Shown here one piece after another: positions 28,935-36,543 of a DNA stretch of 64,000 bases; position 1 is the first letter of the stretch, and each line of letters begins with the position of its first letter. Below the pieces are notes generated by a model. The model had not been told where the DNA came from. It made no database searches and worked only from the letters and a program-made list of their open reading frames with translations. This DNA comes from Rhodococcus sp. RD6.2 (GTDB lineage: Bacteria; Actinomycetota; Actinomycetes; Mycobacteriales; Mycobacteriaceae). The stretch spans positions 118,209 to 182,208 of the forward strand of contig NZ_CVQP01000008.1 in the NCBI RefSeq assembly GCF_001040705.1. The letters run 5' to 3'. The translations under genes were made by a program, and so were the position numbers.

Positions 28935-28948
28935 CCTGGGACTTCAAT

Positions 28949-29476
28949 TCACGCGAGCATCATGGCGACGAAGCCCGCGACGTACAAAAGCGCGAAGAGG
29001 ACTGGAATCCACTTCTCGAGATGGGCGAGTGGCCAGTACCGGGACCGGTCTGCGCCCTCGCCCAGCGCCCACCATTCGGCGCGCCAGAATGGGGAGGCCG
29101 GGAGTCGTTCCTCGAGGGCGCCGACGACCCGATACTTGGCGCTGTTGAGCAGCCGGTAGCTGCGCACCAGGTAGAACCAGGCGGCGCACTGGCCGAGTAC
29201 CGCGACCAGTGGAATTGCCAGCCACGATCGAGTGCCCTCAGGGGCAGCCTCGCCGAACGTGGCGACGACGGTGACTATGCCGGTGTTCAGCGTCAGGAAG
29301 AACGAGTTCGCGAGTCCGCGGCGGGCGCTGATGCGGTCTGCCATCTCGACGTAGAGCCGGTATTGTTCGAGCACCGCGGCCTCGACGGTCATGACCTTGC
29401 CGTCGGGCCGCGTGTCATGTGGTGCGTCGTTCCAGAGTCGGTCGCGGAGCTCGGACTGACTGTCTCGGCCATCCAC
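28949..29476 (-). CDS. RipA-like small three-TM membrane protein, divergent partner of a SIR2-TIR/nSTAND module
   Basis: 175 residues from a GTG at 29476 with AGGAGG seven bases upstream. A short cytoplasmic segment contains LEQYRLYVEMADRISARRG, followed by TM1 (ANSFFLTLNTGIVTVVATF), TM2 (about 95-115) and TM3 at the extreme C-terminus. The YRLYVEMADRISxRR-xxN-FFLTLNT block matches my memory of the RipA-like octameric membrane family, which often sits beside TIR, SIR2 and nucleotide-signalling genes. It is a plausible membrane effector or sensor. It is not a paralogue of the neighbouring housekeeping membrane gene. Confidence 0.7.
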   Translation of the reverse strand: MDGRDSQSELRDRLWNDAPHDTRPDGKVMTVEAAVLEQYRLYVEMADRISARRGLANSFFLTLNTGIVTVVATFGEAAPEGTRSWLAIPLVAVLGQCAAWFYLVRSYRLLNSAKYRVVGALEERLPASPFWRAEWWALGEGADRSRYWPLAHLEKWIPVLFALLYVAGFVAMMLA

Positions 29477-29642
29477 GCTGCACCTCCTGGGGTGTCGCCG
29501 CGCCTTGCTCGCTGTTCCATTCTCCCGCGCCAGCCGGTCCGACATGCCAGGAACCCTCGCTCGAGTTCCCGCCTATCCGACTCTTCGGAGCCCGCTCGCC
29601 GCACCTGCCACGCATGCATTCCGCATGAGCACTCTCGCAGTC

Positions 29643-29659
29643 GAGTAGTCGGCTACTCT
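29643..29659. promoter_or_regulatory. inverted repeat overlapping a possible -10 before the SIR2-TIR gene
   Basis: GAGTAG-TCGG-CTACTC is a perfect 6-base inverted repeat, and TACTCT (29654-29659) within its right arm fits a -10 element 35 bases upstream of the ATG. It could be an operator in the 217-base divergent interval 29477-29693, where no other element was recognised. Confidence 0.35.
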
Positions 29660-29693
29660 GGCTGCGGCTCCGTCCGCCGAGCACCATGAATTC

Positions 29694-31106
29694 ATGCCTC
29701 AGTTGTCCACCACGGACGCGAACGACGTCTTCTGGGAGGACCTCCTCTCCCATATCGGGGGTCGACTCCTGGTACCCGTCGTCGGTCCGGACATGACATT
29801 GGTCAAGGTCGGCACCACCGAGGAGCGACTCGGAACACTCATCGGACGGCGCTTGGCCGATCGCTATCGCCTGCCACCGGGGTCGACCACGATGGGTGAC
29901 GCGGTGGCGGCCTTCCTGCACGAGCGCGGCCGGGATGAGATCGAGCGACTGTACCGCGTCATCAACGACATCATCGCCGAGGTGGATCCCGTTCCCGGAG
30001 ACGCGCTCCGGAACCTCGCCGCGATCGACAATGTTCCCCTGTTCGTGAGCACCACCCCGGACCGGTTGCTCGCAACCGCGGTGAACGACGTCCGGTTCCA
30101 CGGCCGCCCGGGTGTTCGGGAAGTGTCGTTCTCCCCGAATCAGAGCACGAGCGAACAGTCACGCAACTCGGAACCAGCGGAGAGTACCGACACCGTCGTT
30201 CTGAACTTGTTCGGCCAAACGTCGTCGACGCCCCAGTACGCGATTCACGAGGAAGACCGACTCGAGTGGCTCCACTCATTGCTCAGCGACGCGGCGAGCC
30301 TTCCCGATTGGCTCGACTATCCGCTGAAGCACCATCCGTTGTTGTTCCTCGGATGCGAAATACCGGACTGGCTGGGACGATTCCTGCTTCGCATGTCCAG
30401 CAACTCACGCCTGTCGCTGGAACGCAACCAGCAGTTCTTCTTCGTCGGCAAGTCCATCTCGCCCACACTGTCGAACTTCTTCGCGACCTACTGCCGTAGG
30501 ACGATGGTCCAGCAGTTGGACATGGAGCCTTCCGAGTTCGTCGTGGAGCTGCGCGCACGCTGGGAGCGTCGGACCGCGAGCAGGGCGCGTCCGCCGCTCG
30601 ACCAGACGGATCGTTCGCGGGGAGTCGGCTCCACCAGTTCACCGTCGTCCCCTCCGACCATCTTCATCAGTTACATGAGGGAGGACGCCGATGCCGCCCG
30701 GCGGCTCTACGACGCGATCGACGGCCTCGGCGGAGACGTGTGGCTGGACGAGCGGCAGATCAGCCCGGGCGATGAGTGGGAGAAGGAAGTCCTGGCGAGA
30801 ATTCACGGAACCGTTCGATTGTTCGTCCCGGTCATCTCACGCAACACGGAGGCCGAGGACGAAGGCTACGTCTTCCGGGAGTGGCTGGAGGCGGCGGATC
30901 GCTCGCGCTCGATTCCACGCCGGAGATTCATCGTCCCGGTTGTCATCGACGACGACTACGAGGGTGACGCGAGGCGATACCAGCAGATTCCGGAAGAGTT
31001 CAGCCGCTTGCATTTCGGTCGGGCTCCGGGAGGCGACCCGGATGCCGAGTTGCTCGATGTGCTGACTGCCGAAATCCGCGCCATGCGGCGCACCAATGCG
31101 GCCTGA
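29694..31106 (+). CDS. SIR2-like/TIR fusion protein, candidate defence NADase
   Basis: 470 residues. Residues about 10-290 form a SIR2-like Rossmann domain: VVGPDM (29-34), VSTTPDRLL (118-126, in place of TTNYD), VLNLFG (169-174) and LLFLGCEIPDWLGRF (216-230). Where relatives have a catalytic His before L-x-G, this protein has Asn171. A Ser/Pro linker (about 300-321) leads to a TIR domain: TIFISYMREDADAARRLYDA (322-341), DVWLDERQISPGDEW, then YVFREWLEA with E396 as candidate NADase glutamate. It ends 15 bases before the nSTAND gene. The likely role is NAD cleavage or signalling after the partner senses infection. Start ATG 29694 has only a weak ribosome site. Confidence 0.78.
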   Translation: MPQLSTTDANDVFWEDLLSHIGGRLLVPVVGPDMTLVKVGTTEERLGTLIGRRLADRYRLPPGSTTMGDAVAAFLHERGRDEIERLYRVINDIIAEVDPVPGDALRNLAAIDNVPLFVSTTPDRLLATAVNDVRFHGRPGVREVSFSPNQSTSEQSRNSEPAESTDTVVLNLFGQTSSTPQYAIHEEDRLEWLHSLLSDAASLPDWLDYPLKHHPLLFLGCEIPDWLGRFLLRMSSNSRLSLERNQQFFFVGKSISPTLSNFFATYCRRTMVQQLDMEPSEFVVELRARWERRTASRARPPLDQTDRSRGVGSTSSPSSPPTIFISYMREDADAARRLYDAIDGLGGDVWLDERQISPGDEWEKEVLARIHGTVRLFVPVISRNTEAEDEGYVFREWLEAADRSRSIPRRRFIVPVVIDDDYEGDARRYQQIPEEFSRLHFGRAPGGDPDAELLDVLTAEIRAMRRTNAA

Positions 31107-31121
31107 CCGACGGAGCATGCC

Positions 31122-34100
31122 ATGCAGCTCGACAGAGACAACCCGTGGCCTGGGTTGGCATCATTCGAAGAGGACGCGCAGGCCTACTTCTTCGGGCGCA
31201 ACCGTGAAATTGGAGCGCTGGGAAACCACGTCCTCGACTCGCCCGTCACCGTCCTGTACGGCCGTTCCGGCCTAGGCAAGACGTCCCTGCTTCAGGCGGG
31301 ACTGTTTCCCGTCCTGCGTGCACGCCACCTGCTGCCGATCTATGTTCGGTTCGATTTGAAGCCGGACGCGGCACGACTCGTCGACCAGCTCCGACACGCT
31401 GTCTGCGATTCGATCCGGGCCCAGGCGCCTGACGCGGTCCTGCCCTCGGAAGGCGAATTACTCTGGGAGTACCTGCATCGCAAGGACTTCGAGCTGTGGA
31501 GCGCGCAGAACTATCCGCTCACCCCCGTGATCGTCCTCGATCAGTTCGAAGAACTGTTCACCCTGGGCGAGCGAGTTCCCGACCTCGTTCGCGAGTTCAG
31601 GGACGATCTCGGCGATCTGGCCGAGAACCGCATACCCGCAGACCTGGCCGCACGGATCGAGAACGACGAGGGCGTGGCTGCGCGATTCGACCTGCGGTCA
31701 CGCACGTCGAAGCTGTTGATCAGCCTGCGCGAGGACTTCCTCCCCGAGCTCGAAGGCTGGCGACAGCTCATTCCATCGCTGGGACGCTCACGAGTGCGCC
31801 TGCTGAACCTGCGCGCAAGCGACGCCCTTGCCGCCGTGCACGAACCAGCGGCGCACCTCATGACAGAGCCACTGGCTCGCCGGGTGGTCGCCATCGTCGC
31901 GGGCGAAGACCTGCACCGCGGCCACGACACCGCCCACTCCGAGTCCGATCATCCCCACGATCACCGCGGCGAATCGGACGTGGAACCCGCACTGCTGAGC
32001 CTGTTCTGCCGCGAGCTCAACGAGGAGAGGAAGCGACGTGGGCAGCCGCAGTTCGACAAGCAGCTCGTCGAGGACGCCAAACGCGACATCCTGTCGAACT
32101 ACTACTCATCGTGCGTCAATGGGATGCCGCCCCGCGTCGCGCGCTTCATCGAGTCCGAGCTGATCACCGAAAAGGGTTTCCGCAACAGCTACCCCCGCGA
32201 GGACGCGGTGCCGTCGCACCTGACGGATGACGAACTCACCCGGCTGATTCAGTCGCGGCTGCTCCGGATCGAGGAGCGCTACGGCGCGCAACGGATCGAA
32301 CTGACCCACGATGTGCTCACGCGTGTCGTGCGAGAACACCGTGATCGCCGCCGTGTGCAGGAGGAGAGTGCAGCACGCGAGGCGCGCCACGCCGCGGCGC
32401 AGCAACGCCAGCAGGCCGCGCTCCGCGACGCCCATGAGCGCCAACGGGAAGCCGAGAACTACGCCCGCGCGCTGCGCAAACGCTCCCGCACCCTGCGCGC
32501 GGTACTGGCAGGCACCGTGATCATCGCTGTGCTGGCCGTCGTCGCGGCGCTTCTCACTTGGCGGGCATACGACGAGGCCAATACCCGCAAACAGGAGGCG
32601 CTCGGCGAACGACTCGCTTCGGAAGGGCAGGCGATCCTCTCTGGCGGTCAACCAGGCAGTGAACTTCCCGCGTTCGTCAAGGTTATTGCTGCACAGAATC
32701 TTTCACCGCAAGCCAACGTTGGAGGACTGCGCCTGGCGGTCGACGGTTGGTCGAACCTTGACGAGATATATCCGAACTCGGGCATGTTCAGCCGCATCCT
32801 CAGCGGCGACGGTCAGCGCGTCGCGAACACCGACGACGATGGCGTTCATCTGATCGACACCCGAACGTGGATGCCGGTCGGCGCTCCGGTCGACAATCCG
32901 GCCGCGTATGCCACTGCGATCGACTTCAGTGGCCGCTACCTCACGATCTTTGACAGCACCGACAAAACCACTGGCGTGTGGGACACCGACACCGGAGATT
33001 ACATCGGGCAACGGGTGCCTGGCGGAACCACAGTTGGCGAAGCCGCTGTCAGCATGGATGGGCGTCGGGTTGCAGTGAGCGACGACCAAGGATTGCGGCT
33101 GTGGGACCCCAAGACGGGGCAGCCGGTTGCCACATTGACAACCGATCCCGGCATCAGCGTCACCGCACTGGCGTTCAGCCCCGACGGACGTCGACTCGCT
33201 ACAGCCACCAGCGACCGCGAGGGCACAATCCAACTGTGGGATGCCGAAACCGGAGCTGCGCTTCGCGAGACATCGCAGTTCCGCGACGAAGCAATCCGCG
33301 ACTACGACTTCGTCTCAAGCCTCGCTTTCAGTCCGGACGGGACCGTGGTCGCCGCTGGCGGATTTACAGTAGGTGTTTCGTCACTGAATGGCGGAACGCC
33401 ACTAAGGATATGGAATGCCGACACCGGCGAATTGATTGGAGCACCCGCAGCAGGCGACTACGGCCTGATCTGGTCCCTAGCGTTTAGCCCCGACGGCCAC
33501 CATATCGTTACCGGTAGCACCGACAAAAGCGTGCGACTGTGGGACGGGGCCACAGGTCAGCCGACTGGCAATCAATTGCGCTTTCAATCACCGGTGGAGC
33601 ATGTCGCATTCACGAAAGCGGAGGACTCGCTAATTGCAGTGACCGATGAGTCCGTTCAGAAGCTGGATGGACAACTCGATGAGCAGCTGCTCGTAGAGAC
33701 GGCGGGCAGCAAGGCCGCCCCACTAGACCTCGCTGACACCCTAGGTGTGGATACCACCACAGATGTACCTCAGATCGTGTTCACGCGGGACAACTCAAGA
33801 CACCGTTTGAATGCCGACACCGGGGAGCACATCAGCACCTTCACGAACGACACGCTCCGGTCAGTCCGGACGCAAAGCGGCAAGGCTGCGGACTGGAGTC
33901 GCGACTATCGATGGCTCGCCATCGCCGGAGAGGACAACGCGATTCGTATCCTCGACACGTCAAACGGACGACCCGCAGGCCAGCCCGTCACCGGATACAA
34001 CGGAGCCGACAAAGGGTTCACGATCAGCCCCGACGGGAAGGTCCTCGCGTACACCAGCGATGACAACGCCGTGCGATTGTGGGACACGCAGAGAGGCAAA

Positions 34101-34796
34101 CAGATCGGAGATCCGCTCTCCGGCGATGAAGCCGCGACCTACGAGGTCACTTTCAGCCAGGACGGCACCCACCTGTTCGCACGAGGCGACAGCTCGATCT
34201 GGGTGTGGGACATGACTATGCGGCCACCTTTGGGAGAGCAGGTCGCCGGTCGGGATAGTCCGACCTACTTCGACGACATGGCCGTGAGTCCCGACGGTCA
34301 CCGAGTCGCAACTGCGACACTCCGAGGTGAAATTCAAGTATGGGACGTTGACAGCGGTGAGTCCATCGGCAAGCCCATGACGGGGCACAGCGGCATATCC
34401 GGCATCGTGTACAGCCCCAATGGCGACTTCCTGGCGTCGATCGGCGATGTGGGCACCGACGACACCCTGCGGTTCTGGGATGCCGAATCGGGCGAGCAAG
34501 TCGGCCAGCCAGTGGATACAGAATCCATAGGCGCTGCGGGCTCGGTGGAATTCGGCAAGGACGGACAGACTGCCTACATCGTTGGACTGCCTGTGACGCT
34601 GACCGGCAGCGGGCCAACTGCCGGGAGCCCCGCGGTCTGGCAGCTTCCCGCGCCGGCGGCGTGGAAGGACGTGCTGTGCGAGAAGCTGGTCGCCAACCCG
34701 AGCGAGGAGCAGTGGCGGGAGTGGGTCTCTCCCGACGTCGAGTACAAGGAACCATGCCCCGGCAAACCCCGAGCCGCCGACACCAGCAGTGAATGA
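31122..34796 (+). CDS. nSTAND NTPase with TM helix and WD40-like double propeller
   Basis: 1224 residues. The N-terminus NPWPGLASFEEDAQAYFFGR (7-26) is the nSTAND1 opening. Walker A GRSGLGKT (47-54), Walker B VIVLDQFEELF (135-145), and RIELTHDVLTRVVREHR (390-406) closes the winged-helix part. A coiled Gln/Arg/Ala-rich stretch (410-455) precedes one TM helix (457-478). From about 540 to 1190, roughly 14 blades of the FSPDG...LWD type suggest two seven-bladed propellers. A C-terminal cap (WKDVLCEKL, then YKEPCPG) is usual for the family. Base composition falls in the propeller region compared with its neighbours, a sign of transfer. It is the probable sensor/ATPase of the module with the SIR2-TIR protein. 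Confidence 0.88.
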   Translation: MQLDRDNPWPGLASFEEDAQAYFFGRNREIGALGNHVLDSPVTVLYGRSGLGKTSLLQAGLFPVLRARHLLPIYVRFDLKPDAARLVDQLRHAVCDSIRAQAPDAVLPSEGELLWEYLHRKDFELWSAQNYPLTPVIVLDQFEELFTLGERVPDLVREFRDDLGDLAENRIPADLAARIENDEGVAARFDLRSRTSKLLISLREDFLPELEGWRQLIPSLGRSRVRLLNLRASDALAAVHEPAAHLMTEPLARRVVAIVAGEDLHRGHDTAHSESDHPHDHRGESDVEPALLSLFCRELNEERKRRGQPQFDKQLVEDAKRDILSNYYSSCVNGMPPRVARFIESELITEKGFRNSYPREDAVPSHLTDDELTRLIQSRLLRIEERYGAQRIELTHDVLTRVVREHRDRRRVQEESAAREARHAAAQQRQQAALRDAHERQREAENYARALRKRSRTLRAVLAGTVIIAVLAVVAALLTWRAYDEANTRKQEALGERLASEGQAILSGGQPGSELPAFVKVIAAQNLSPQANVGGLRLAVDGWSNLDEIYPNSGMFSRILSGDGQRVANTDDDGVHLIDTRTWMPVGAPVDNPAAYATAIDFSGRYLTIFDSTDKTTGVWDTDTGDYIGQRVPGGTTVGEAAVSMDGRRVAVSDDQGLRLWDPKTGQPVATLTTDPGISVTALAFSPDGRRLATATSDREGTIQLWDAETGAALRETSQFRDEAIRDYDFVSSLAFSPDGTVVAAGGFTVGVSSLNGGTPLRIWNADTGELIGAPAAGDYGLIWSLAFSPDGHHIVTGSTDKSVRLWDGATGQPTGNQLRFQSPVEHVAFTKAEDSLIAVTDESVQKLDGQLDEQLLVETAGSKAAPLDLADTLGVDTTTDVPQIVFTRDNSRHRLNADTGEHISTFTNDTLRSVRTQSGKAADWSRDYRWLAIAGEDNAIRILDTSNGRPAGQPVTGYNGADKGFTISPDGKVLAYTSDDNAVRLWDTQRGKQIGDPLSGDEAATYEVTFSQDGTHLFARGDSSIWVWDMTMRPPLGEQVAGRDSPTYFDDMAVSPDGHRVATATLRGEIQVWDVDSGESIGKPMTGHSGISGIVYSPNGDFLASIGDVGTDDTLRFWDAESGEQVGQPVDTESIGAAGSVEFGKDGQTAYIVGLPVTLTGSGPTAGSPAVWQLPAPAAWKDVLCEKLVANPSEEQWREWVSPDVEYKEPCPGKPRAADTSSE

Positions 34797-34817
34797 GGCA
34801 CGACCTGCGGAAGGGAA

Positions 34818-34841
34818 GTCGCGGGGCTGACACCCCGCGAC
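34818..34841. terminator. bidirectional terminator between the nSTAND gene and aroB
   Basis: Perfect 9-base stem GTCGCGGGG/CCCCGCGAC with loop CTGACA, 22 bases past the nSTAND stop and 34 bases past the convergent aroB stop. No T-tract. Confidence 0.75.
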
Positions 34842-34874
34842 CCCACCTCCCGCCCGCAGCGGCGTGCGAGCCCG

Positions 34875-36543
<1,669 letters not shown>

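Follow-up and report, generated by a model that had tools for sequence, protein, structure and literature searches.

What function do three genes serve that lie together in the chromosome of Rhodococcus sp. RD6.2, encoding a small membrane protein, a fusion of SIR2-like and TIR domains, and an NTPase of the nSTAND type with a WD40 propeller? A sequence-only reading of the window (the whole stretch of DNA analysed, 64,000 nucleotides) had taken them for a single three-gene defence module. The account that we favour, and hold to be probable without being secure, is a two-gene, STAND-triggered NADase module accompanied by a TIR-associated membrane gene, the latter as a probable accessory. That immunity is the purpose of the locus is something we infer.

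The three open reading frames were confirmed as predicted, together with their domains: 28949–29545 on the minus strand, and 29694–31106 and 31122–34796 on the plus strand, the latter two separated by just the 15 bases first reported. The interval shared by the divergent genes depends on where the minus-strand gene begins. Its first ATG is at 29545, which leaves 148 bases, while comparison with homologues favours a GTG at 29476, with which the earlier figure of 217 bases (29477..29693) stands; a promoter scan found no sigma-70-like match there. The terminator thought to close the locus fared less well. Between the convergent genes, a hairpin search returned an imperfect 18-nt hairpin (34809..34850), which is followed by no T run and does not appear in the output of the terminator scan.

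All three genes fall within a 5.9-kb block (28935..34874) between P0005 (28263–28934), a small membrane protein, and a gene that we take to be aroB (34875–35984), this and the other housekeeping names being our own reading of the sequences. In the sister genome G095 (L032), the homologues of P0005 and aroB lie 55 bp apart with no block between them, and in three other sisters the gap is 543 bp (G047), 490 bp (G021) and 496 bp (G064). In G047 and G064 it is filled by a 141-aa ORF (L033 846–1271 and L036 791–1216) that we read as a type II dehydroquinase and that is missing at the same site in both the window and G095. The contig of a fifth sister, G081, ends near its P0005 homologue, and the site comparison is one of four sisters. 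No match to the membrane protein (P0001) or the nSTAND protein (P0003) was found at the site in L032–L036, and the genus-wide matches to the SIR2-TIR protein (P0002) are all located elsewhere. Since the flanking genes are adjacent or one small gene apart in the sisters, the block looks like an insertion at this position. GC content ranges over 0.59–0.68 in the block, 0.68–0.73 to its right and 0.63–0.71 to its left, so that GC alone is weak evidence.

The association of the two plus-strand genes is found well beyond this site. A pattern scan of an 84,980-species collection, which detects close relatives of the SIR2-TIR protein, returned five at 59–71% identity, and a plasmid search added one full-length relative at 33% identity, in Paraburkholderia caribensis. 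An nSTAND NTPase gene lies directly 3' of the SIR2-TIR gene in all six of these loci, in Actinomycetota and Paraburkholderia, two of the six nSTAND genes being incomplete: the L005 contig ends after 75 aa, and L008 carries an in-frame stop at residue 504. This stop, in Nocardia vaccinii (L008 11374–15060), falls after the TM region and ahead of the propeller. In R. maanshanensis the pair occupies a different site (L009). The recurrence of the pair in six loci out of six, together with the absence of the block from four sisters, indicates more than chance, and the gene order supports the view that SIR2-TIR and nSTAND form a conserved operon built like the immune systems of NADase type, as had been supposed. 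The SIR2-TIR family is rare and patchily distributed. Of 301 genomes from the same taxonomic family, two have full-length matches and two more match over the TIR part only, and among 394 genomes of the class and 397 of the order the window's own copy was the sole one found. Pattern scans of viral contigs returned no relative of the SIR2-TIR protein (or of its alignment) or of the membrane protein, and phage records held no relative of the latter. A literature search of partial coverage found no published description of a SIR2-TIR/nSTAND-WD40 pair.

Which half of the fusion protein (470 aa; 29694..31106, plus strand) could act on NAD? Its SIR2_2-matching stretch (aa 118–255; 30045..30458) scores slightly below the Pfam cut-off (E 4e-5, 24.3 bits against 24.5), and profile–profile comparison of the SIR2 half with 16 SIR2_2 proteins gave a probability of 96.5 (E 1e-9). 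Against the PDB, a sequence search with the whole protein returned TIR matches only, and the SIR2 half used as a profile returned no match. In the profile alignment, the sirtuin catalytic Asn is replaced by T121 (30054..30056; TTNYD to STTPD) and the sirtuin His by F173 (30210..30212; LHG to LFG), and both replacements are invariant in all seven family members. In ThsA, the substitutions N112A and H152A abolish NAD cleavage, the second also altering the oligomeric state (PMC7272460). Avs5 is functional with an Asn at the His position (NG for HG), while its N110A and D112A substitutions abolish immunity (PMC12931631). Thus, Avs5 is active without the His, but here the Asn is lost as well, which makes inactivity of the SIR2 half likely, if unproved. 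That this half could still act as an NADase, its site altered, so that the protein would have two NAD-cleaving domains, seems to us quite improbable: the retention of Asp123, the nearby invariant His185 and the tolerance of Avs5 would allow it, but the uniform change of both Asn and His, set beside the ThsA mutants, argues the other way. The sequence-only reading had the SIR2-TIR protein destroy NAD or make a signal; that it is the SIR2 moiety which destroys NAD is accordingly unlikely, this moiety probably being no NADase.

The TIR half (aa 323–423; 30660..30962) is recognized without difficulty (TIR_2, E 6.2e-15, 56 bits against a cut-off of 28), and its putative catalytic Glu, E396 (30879..30881), is conserved in all ten aligned TIR rows, seven from the family and three from other TIRs. 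The protein has, then, a TIR domain with the Glu expected of a TIR NADase. As the SIR2 half probably has no such activity, destruction of NAD would come from the TIR half. The SIR2 half itself looks like an adaptor that couples the protein to its STAND partner, a reading new to this analysis.

The partner (P0003; 1224 aa; 31122..34796, plus strand) begins with an nSTAND1 NTPase (aa 8–418; 31143..32375) that matches PF20703 at E 5.8e-29, with 102 bits against a cut-off of 27. Its Walker A motif, GxSGLGKTS, is conserved, includes the Walker lysine K53 and is invariant at G47 and S49–L57 in four aligned orthologues. A single TM helix is predicted from hydropathy at aa 460–478 (32499..32555), followed by a WD40 propeller region recognized by Pfam at about aa 569–1180 (32826..34661). 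The NTPase side of the helix is rich in K/R, with eight such residues in the 20 that precede it and four after it, and the same excess is seen in all six TM-bearing nSTANDs scanned (the window, L009, L006, L007, L012 and L072). From hydropathy and charge, the protein is most likely a single-pass receptor with the WD40 propeller outside and the NTPase inside, an arrangement that is new here. The related nSTANDs of L069 and L070 have no TM helix by the same test, so part of the wider nSTAND class looks cytosolic. Relative to the NTPase (70, 72 and 67% identity to three orthologues), the propeller side (aa 483–1180; 52, 31 and 26%) is, on these alignments, diverging fast. The C-terminal segment (34677..34757) holds C1186 and C1212, the only Cys after the TM helix in the window protein, and both are invariant in four orthologues. 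Other nSTANDs depart from this pattern, L006 and L007 having extra Cys after the helix and L012 none.

A predicted outward-facing sensor would also suit a device for envelope-stress or developmental signalling, such as regulated cell death or kin recognition, rather than for defence against phage. STAND proteins with repeat sensors have been proposed to act in conflict and in cell death in multicellular bacteria (PMC7159879, PMC8195603), which agrees with this alternative. We think it unlikely nevertheless, for the patchy distribution of the family and the absence of the block from the sisters are more in keeping with defence cargo that moves between genomes than with a core signalling function.

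There remains the membrane gene (P0001; 28949..29476, minus strand, with the likelier GTG start). It belongs to the 8xMP family (PF24838, E 9.4e-44, 149 bits against a cut-off of 30), so that its description as a membrane protein holds; the three TM helices once assigned to it are less certain, simple hydropathy giving two strong segments. A PDB sequence search returned no significant match. No 8xMP gene was found in the flanks of any of the six other SIR2-TIR loci, which covered about 10 kb per side, or 8 kb in L012 and the upstream side alone in L005. R. maanshanensis has the pair but gave no 8xMP match in its genome. The exact trio was seen at none of the six other loci, and from these comparisons the core unit is the SIR2-TIR/nSTAND pair, not the set of three that had been suggested. 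Other genes are found beside the pair: a SLOG-patatin and a TPR-S gene in L006, a patatin and an ion channel in L007, and a sub-threshold GDSL lipase with a TPR-S protein in L012; near L005, L008 and L009, none of patatin, TPR-S or channel type was recognized by eye. Since several of these neighbours could act on membranes, 8xMP may belong to a set of interchangeable accessories.

The family does, however, keep company with TIR genes. Our census took in 25 other 8xMP loci, 17 of them from plasmid records and eight from other genomes, and a partner was counted as TIR by record annotation or by a Pfam TIR model above cut-off. The plasmid search had yielded 20 records with a relative, of which three, all additional strains of Leptolyngbya boryana, were set aside. 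In 15 of the 25 loci, 8xMP has a same-strand TIR gene as its immediate neighbour or, in L029, with one small gene in between; these are ten plasmids (L013, L014, L038, L040–L044, L046, L048) and five genomes (L026, L028, L029, L051, L052). In all 15, 8xMP is 3' of the TIR gene, whereas it is divergent in the window. ThsB_TIR (PF08937) scores above cut-off in nine of the 15 partners, and PADLOC called ThsB in all four scanned. The ten loci without a counted TIR are four of Streptomyces type, L039 (with a TIR about 2.5 kb from 8xMP), L017 (whose neighbour has a sub-threshold TIR_2 match, 18.7 bits against 28, and was excluded), L027 (whose neighbour had no Pfam match and was likewise excluded), L045, L047 and the truncated L025. 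Our own TIR profile is insensitive, failing on L026 and L070, where Pfam detects a TIR, so that L025, L045 and L047, called TIR-free by the profile alone, may be under-called. The census supports an association of the 8xMP family with TIR genes, of which a literature search of partial coverage found no published description.

Several of these loci have features of their own. A ThsB-type TIR gene is followed directly by 8xMP in L013, L038, L040, L041, L044, L051 and L052, from bacteria and a haloarchaeon. We regard ThsB-type TIR plus 8xMP as a candidate for a Thoeris-like system of two genes, in which the effector would be a membrane protein. In L029, L051 and L052, a third gene of about 93–100 aa accompanies TIR and 8xMP; for the copy in L052, neither NCBIfam nor PADLOC gave a match. 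On the Paenarthrobacter plasmid (L041 475–1837), a second TIR gene and then a caspase-family gene lie about 2–3 kb from the TIR-8xMP genes. In the Streptomyces-type loci (L015, L016, L037, L030), 8xMP is near an unassigned membrane protein with a conserved VLYLRxF...WE motif. A DUF4328 protein is annotated between the two in L016, and comparable ORFs are present in L015 and L037. The VLYLRxF protein has no Pfam match in L016 or L030 and, with probabilities of 8 and 0.8 in profile comparison with TIR, was not counted as TIR.

How closely 8xMP belongs to the pair can be judged against two alternatives. One is that all three genes form an obligate system, in which an ADP-ribose signal made by the TIR domain, triggered by nSTAND, opens an 8xMP pore in the manner of Thoeris. 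The TIR-8xMP neighbourhoods speak for this, among them L042, where a Rhizobium leguminosarum plasmid encodes a protein of TIR-NB-ARC-WD40 order, that of TIR-type NLRs, with 8xMP directly 3', and L026, where a TIR-TM-WD40 protein is directly followed by 8xMP; so does the confinement of all three genes to one block that the sisters lack. We nonetheless find it rather unlikely, given the other pairs that do without 8xMP and the transcription of 8xMP apart from the pair. SLATT proteins are predicted nucleotide-responsive pore effectors that accompany TIR and other nucleotide effectors (PMC7159879), and one of 16 8xMP members matches SLATT_1 (E 6.6e-4), but the same scan matches three of the 16 to Trp_oprn_chp at up to 1e-5; with more members and better E values on that side, the SLATT_1 match is weak. 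The other alternative, which we consider possible though doubtful, makes 8xMP an unrelated passenger at the insertion site, perhaps the remnant of a lost TIR-8xMP operon. Its absence near the other pairs is as expected on that account, as is the 5'-truncated 8xMP that the sister G081 has at a different site, one with no TIR match. Set against it, the only PF13676 (TIR_2) match and the only 8xMP match in the window genome are neighbours, an adjacency that we estimate would arise by chance about once in 2500 on our own assumptions of some 5000 genes, randomly placed. Between obligate partner and passenger, an accessory of the pair is a plausible role for 8xMP.

The pair also belongs to a looser class. 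SIR2_2 proteins occur in 24 of 118 genomes of the class, from which 16 loci were taken, and in two of these an nSTAND-profile match lies no more than about 1.5 kb away (L053/L069 and L055/L070); most SIR2 genes thus lie outside such pairs. The same two are the good matches to the SIR2 profile of the window family, while L057 matches it at 7e-4 with no nSTAND in 12 kb. The SIR2 gene comes first and overlaps the nSTAND gene by 4 bases in L069 and L070, which are actinobacterial and have no fused TIR, and in Haliscomenobacter (Bacteroidota). The third gene of L070 encodes a TIR-WD40 protein (TIR_2, E 9e-33). On the Haliscomenobacter plasmid, SIR2-EAD11, nSTAND1 and two annotated WD40 genes stand in a row, the EAD11 being at the C-terminus of the SIR2 protein, in the position of the TIR, and the WD40 proteins being encoded separately, both with signal-peptide-like starts by eye and hydropathy. 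Four domain orders can be written: SIR2-TIR/nSTAND-TM-WD40 (the window), SIR2-EAD11/nSTAND-TM/WD40/WD40, SIR2/nSTAND/TIR-WD40, and SIR2-TIR/nSTAND-TM-other (Paraburkholderia). As read from these domain assignments, the slot behind the SIR2 half varies between TIR, EAD11 and none, which is new here. By our own reading of the SIR2 residues, Haliscomenobacter keeps the Asn with Phe at the His position, L055/L070 carries Ser and Gln at the two positions, and both residues are intact in L053/L069.

In our preferred reading, of a two-gene module with an accessory, the nSTAND protein would be held in the membrane by its one helix, the propeller outside reading an event at the envelope, such as phage adsorption, DNA entry or damage. 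The NTPase would then oligomerize, and the SIR2-derived half, probably non-enzymatic, would couple to it in a complex and so cluster the TIR half. Clustered TIR domains would cleave NAD or make an ADP-ribose signal, and 8xMP may permeabilize the membrane or respond to a signal made by TIR. To our knowledge, those bacterial STAND immune receptors that have been characterised (Avs, bNACHT) act intracellularly, on phage parts. We tentatively propose, with less conviction than we give the module itself, that the locus is a cell-surface counterpart of NLRs, in which an outward, fast-diverging WD40 sensor would relay an envelope event through a dead SIR2 adaptor to a TIR NADase. As one part with this proposal, and held just as tentatively, the modular class would extend across Actinomycetota, Pseudomonadota and Bacteroidota, with an exchangeable sensor (fused WD40, secreted WD40 or another domain after the TM helix), an effector slot taken by TIR, EAD11 or active SIR2, and 8xMP as a recurrent TIR-activated effector. 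If the proposal is true, this would be a STAND receptor that senses the outside, and an event at the surface could trigger NAD-based suicide in bacteria. The locus is also a clear case of a seemingly dead enzyme domain retained for use as an adaptor in signalling, and through it 8xMP emerges as often partnered with TIR genes, in archaea as well as bacteria.

Among known systems, the SLATT 2TM effectors resemble 8xMP in that they reportedly accompany TIR genes (PMC7159879); 8xMP differs in being a Pfam family of its own, and its pore formation is putative. Thoeris, with its TIR protein ThsB and its SIR2-SLOG protein ThsA, likewise brings SIR2 and TIR folds together around NAD. In the window, by contrast, SIR2 and TIR share one polypeptide whose SIR2 half lacks both Asn and His, and it is accompanied by a STAND protein; no ThsA-type SLOG or macro domain appears in the Pfam results for P0001 and P0002 or among the best 25 of 56 for P0003, and the NCBIfam ThcB4 match reaches 26.5 bits against a cut-off of 220. 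PADLOC gave no close match for nSTAND or 8xMP, and none of its Avs models is among the matches listed, up to E 1, for either P0002 or P0003. The EAD/nSTAND counter-invader systems described by Aravind and colleagues share the nSTAND1 clade, swaps in the adaptor/TIR effector slot and superstructure repeats as sensors (PMC7159879, PMC8195603), and one homologous SIR2 partner, that of Haliscomenobacter, carries EAD11. They differ from the window, where no EAD is found in the Pfam results for P0001 and P0002 or among the best 25 of 56 for P0003, and the available parts of the same two papers do not include a SIR2-TIR/nSTAND-TM-WD40 pair. Avs5 also joins a SIR2-like domain and a STAND NTPase that ends in a repeat sensor, and its output is NAD hydrolysis; it is a single intracellular protein, with a Sir2-like effector, an ATPase and C-terminal TPR/Sel1 repeats (PMC12931631). 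The window departs from it in dividing SIR2 and STAND between two genes, in joining a predicted TM anchor and WD40 to its nSTAND1, in a degenerate SIR2 with Thr121 and Phe173 where Avs5-type proteins have the catalytic Asn and the His or NG, and in the addition of a TIR domain.
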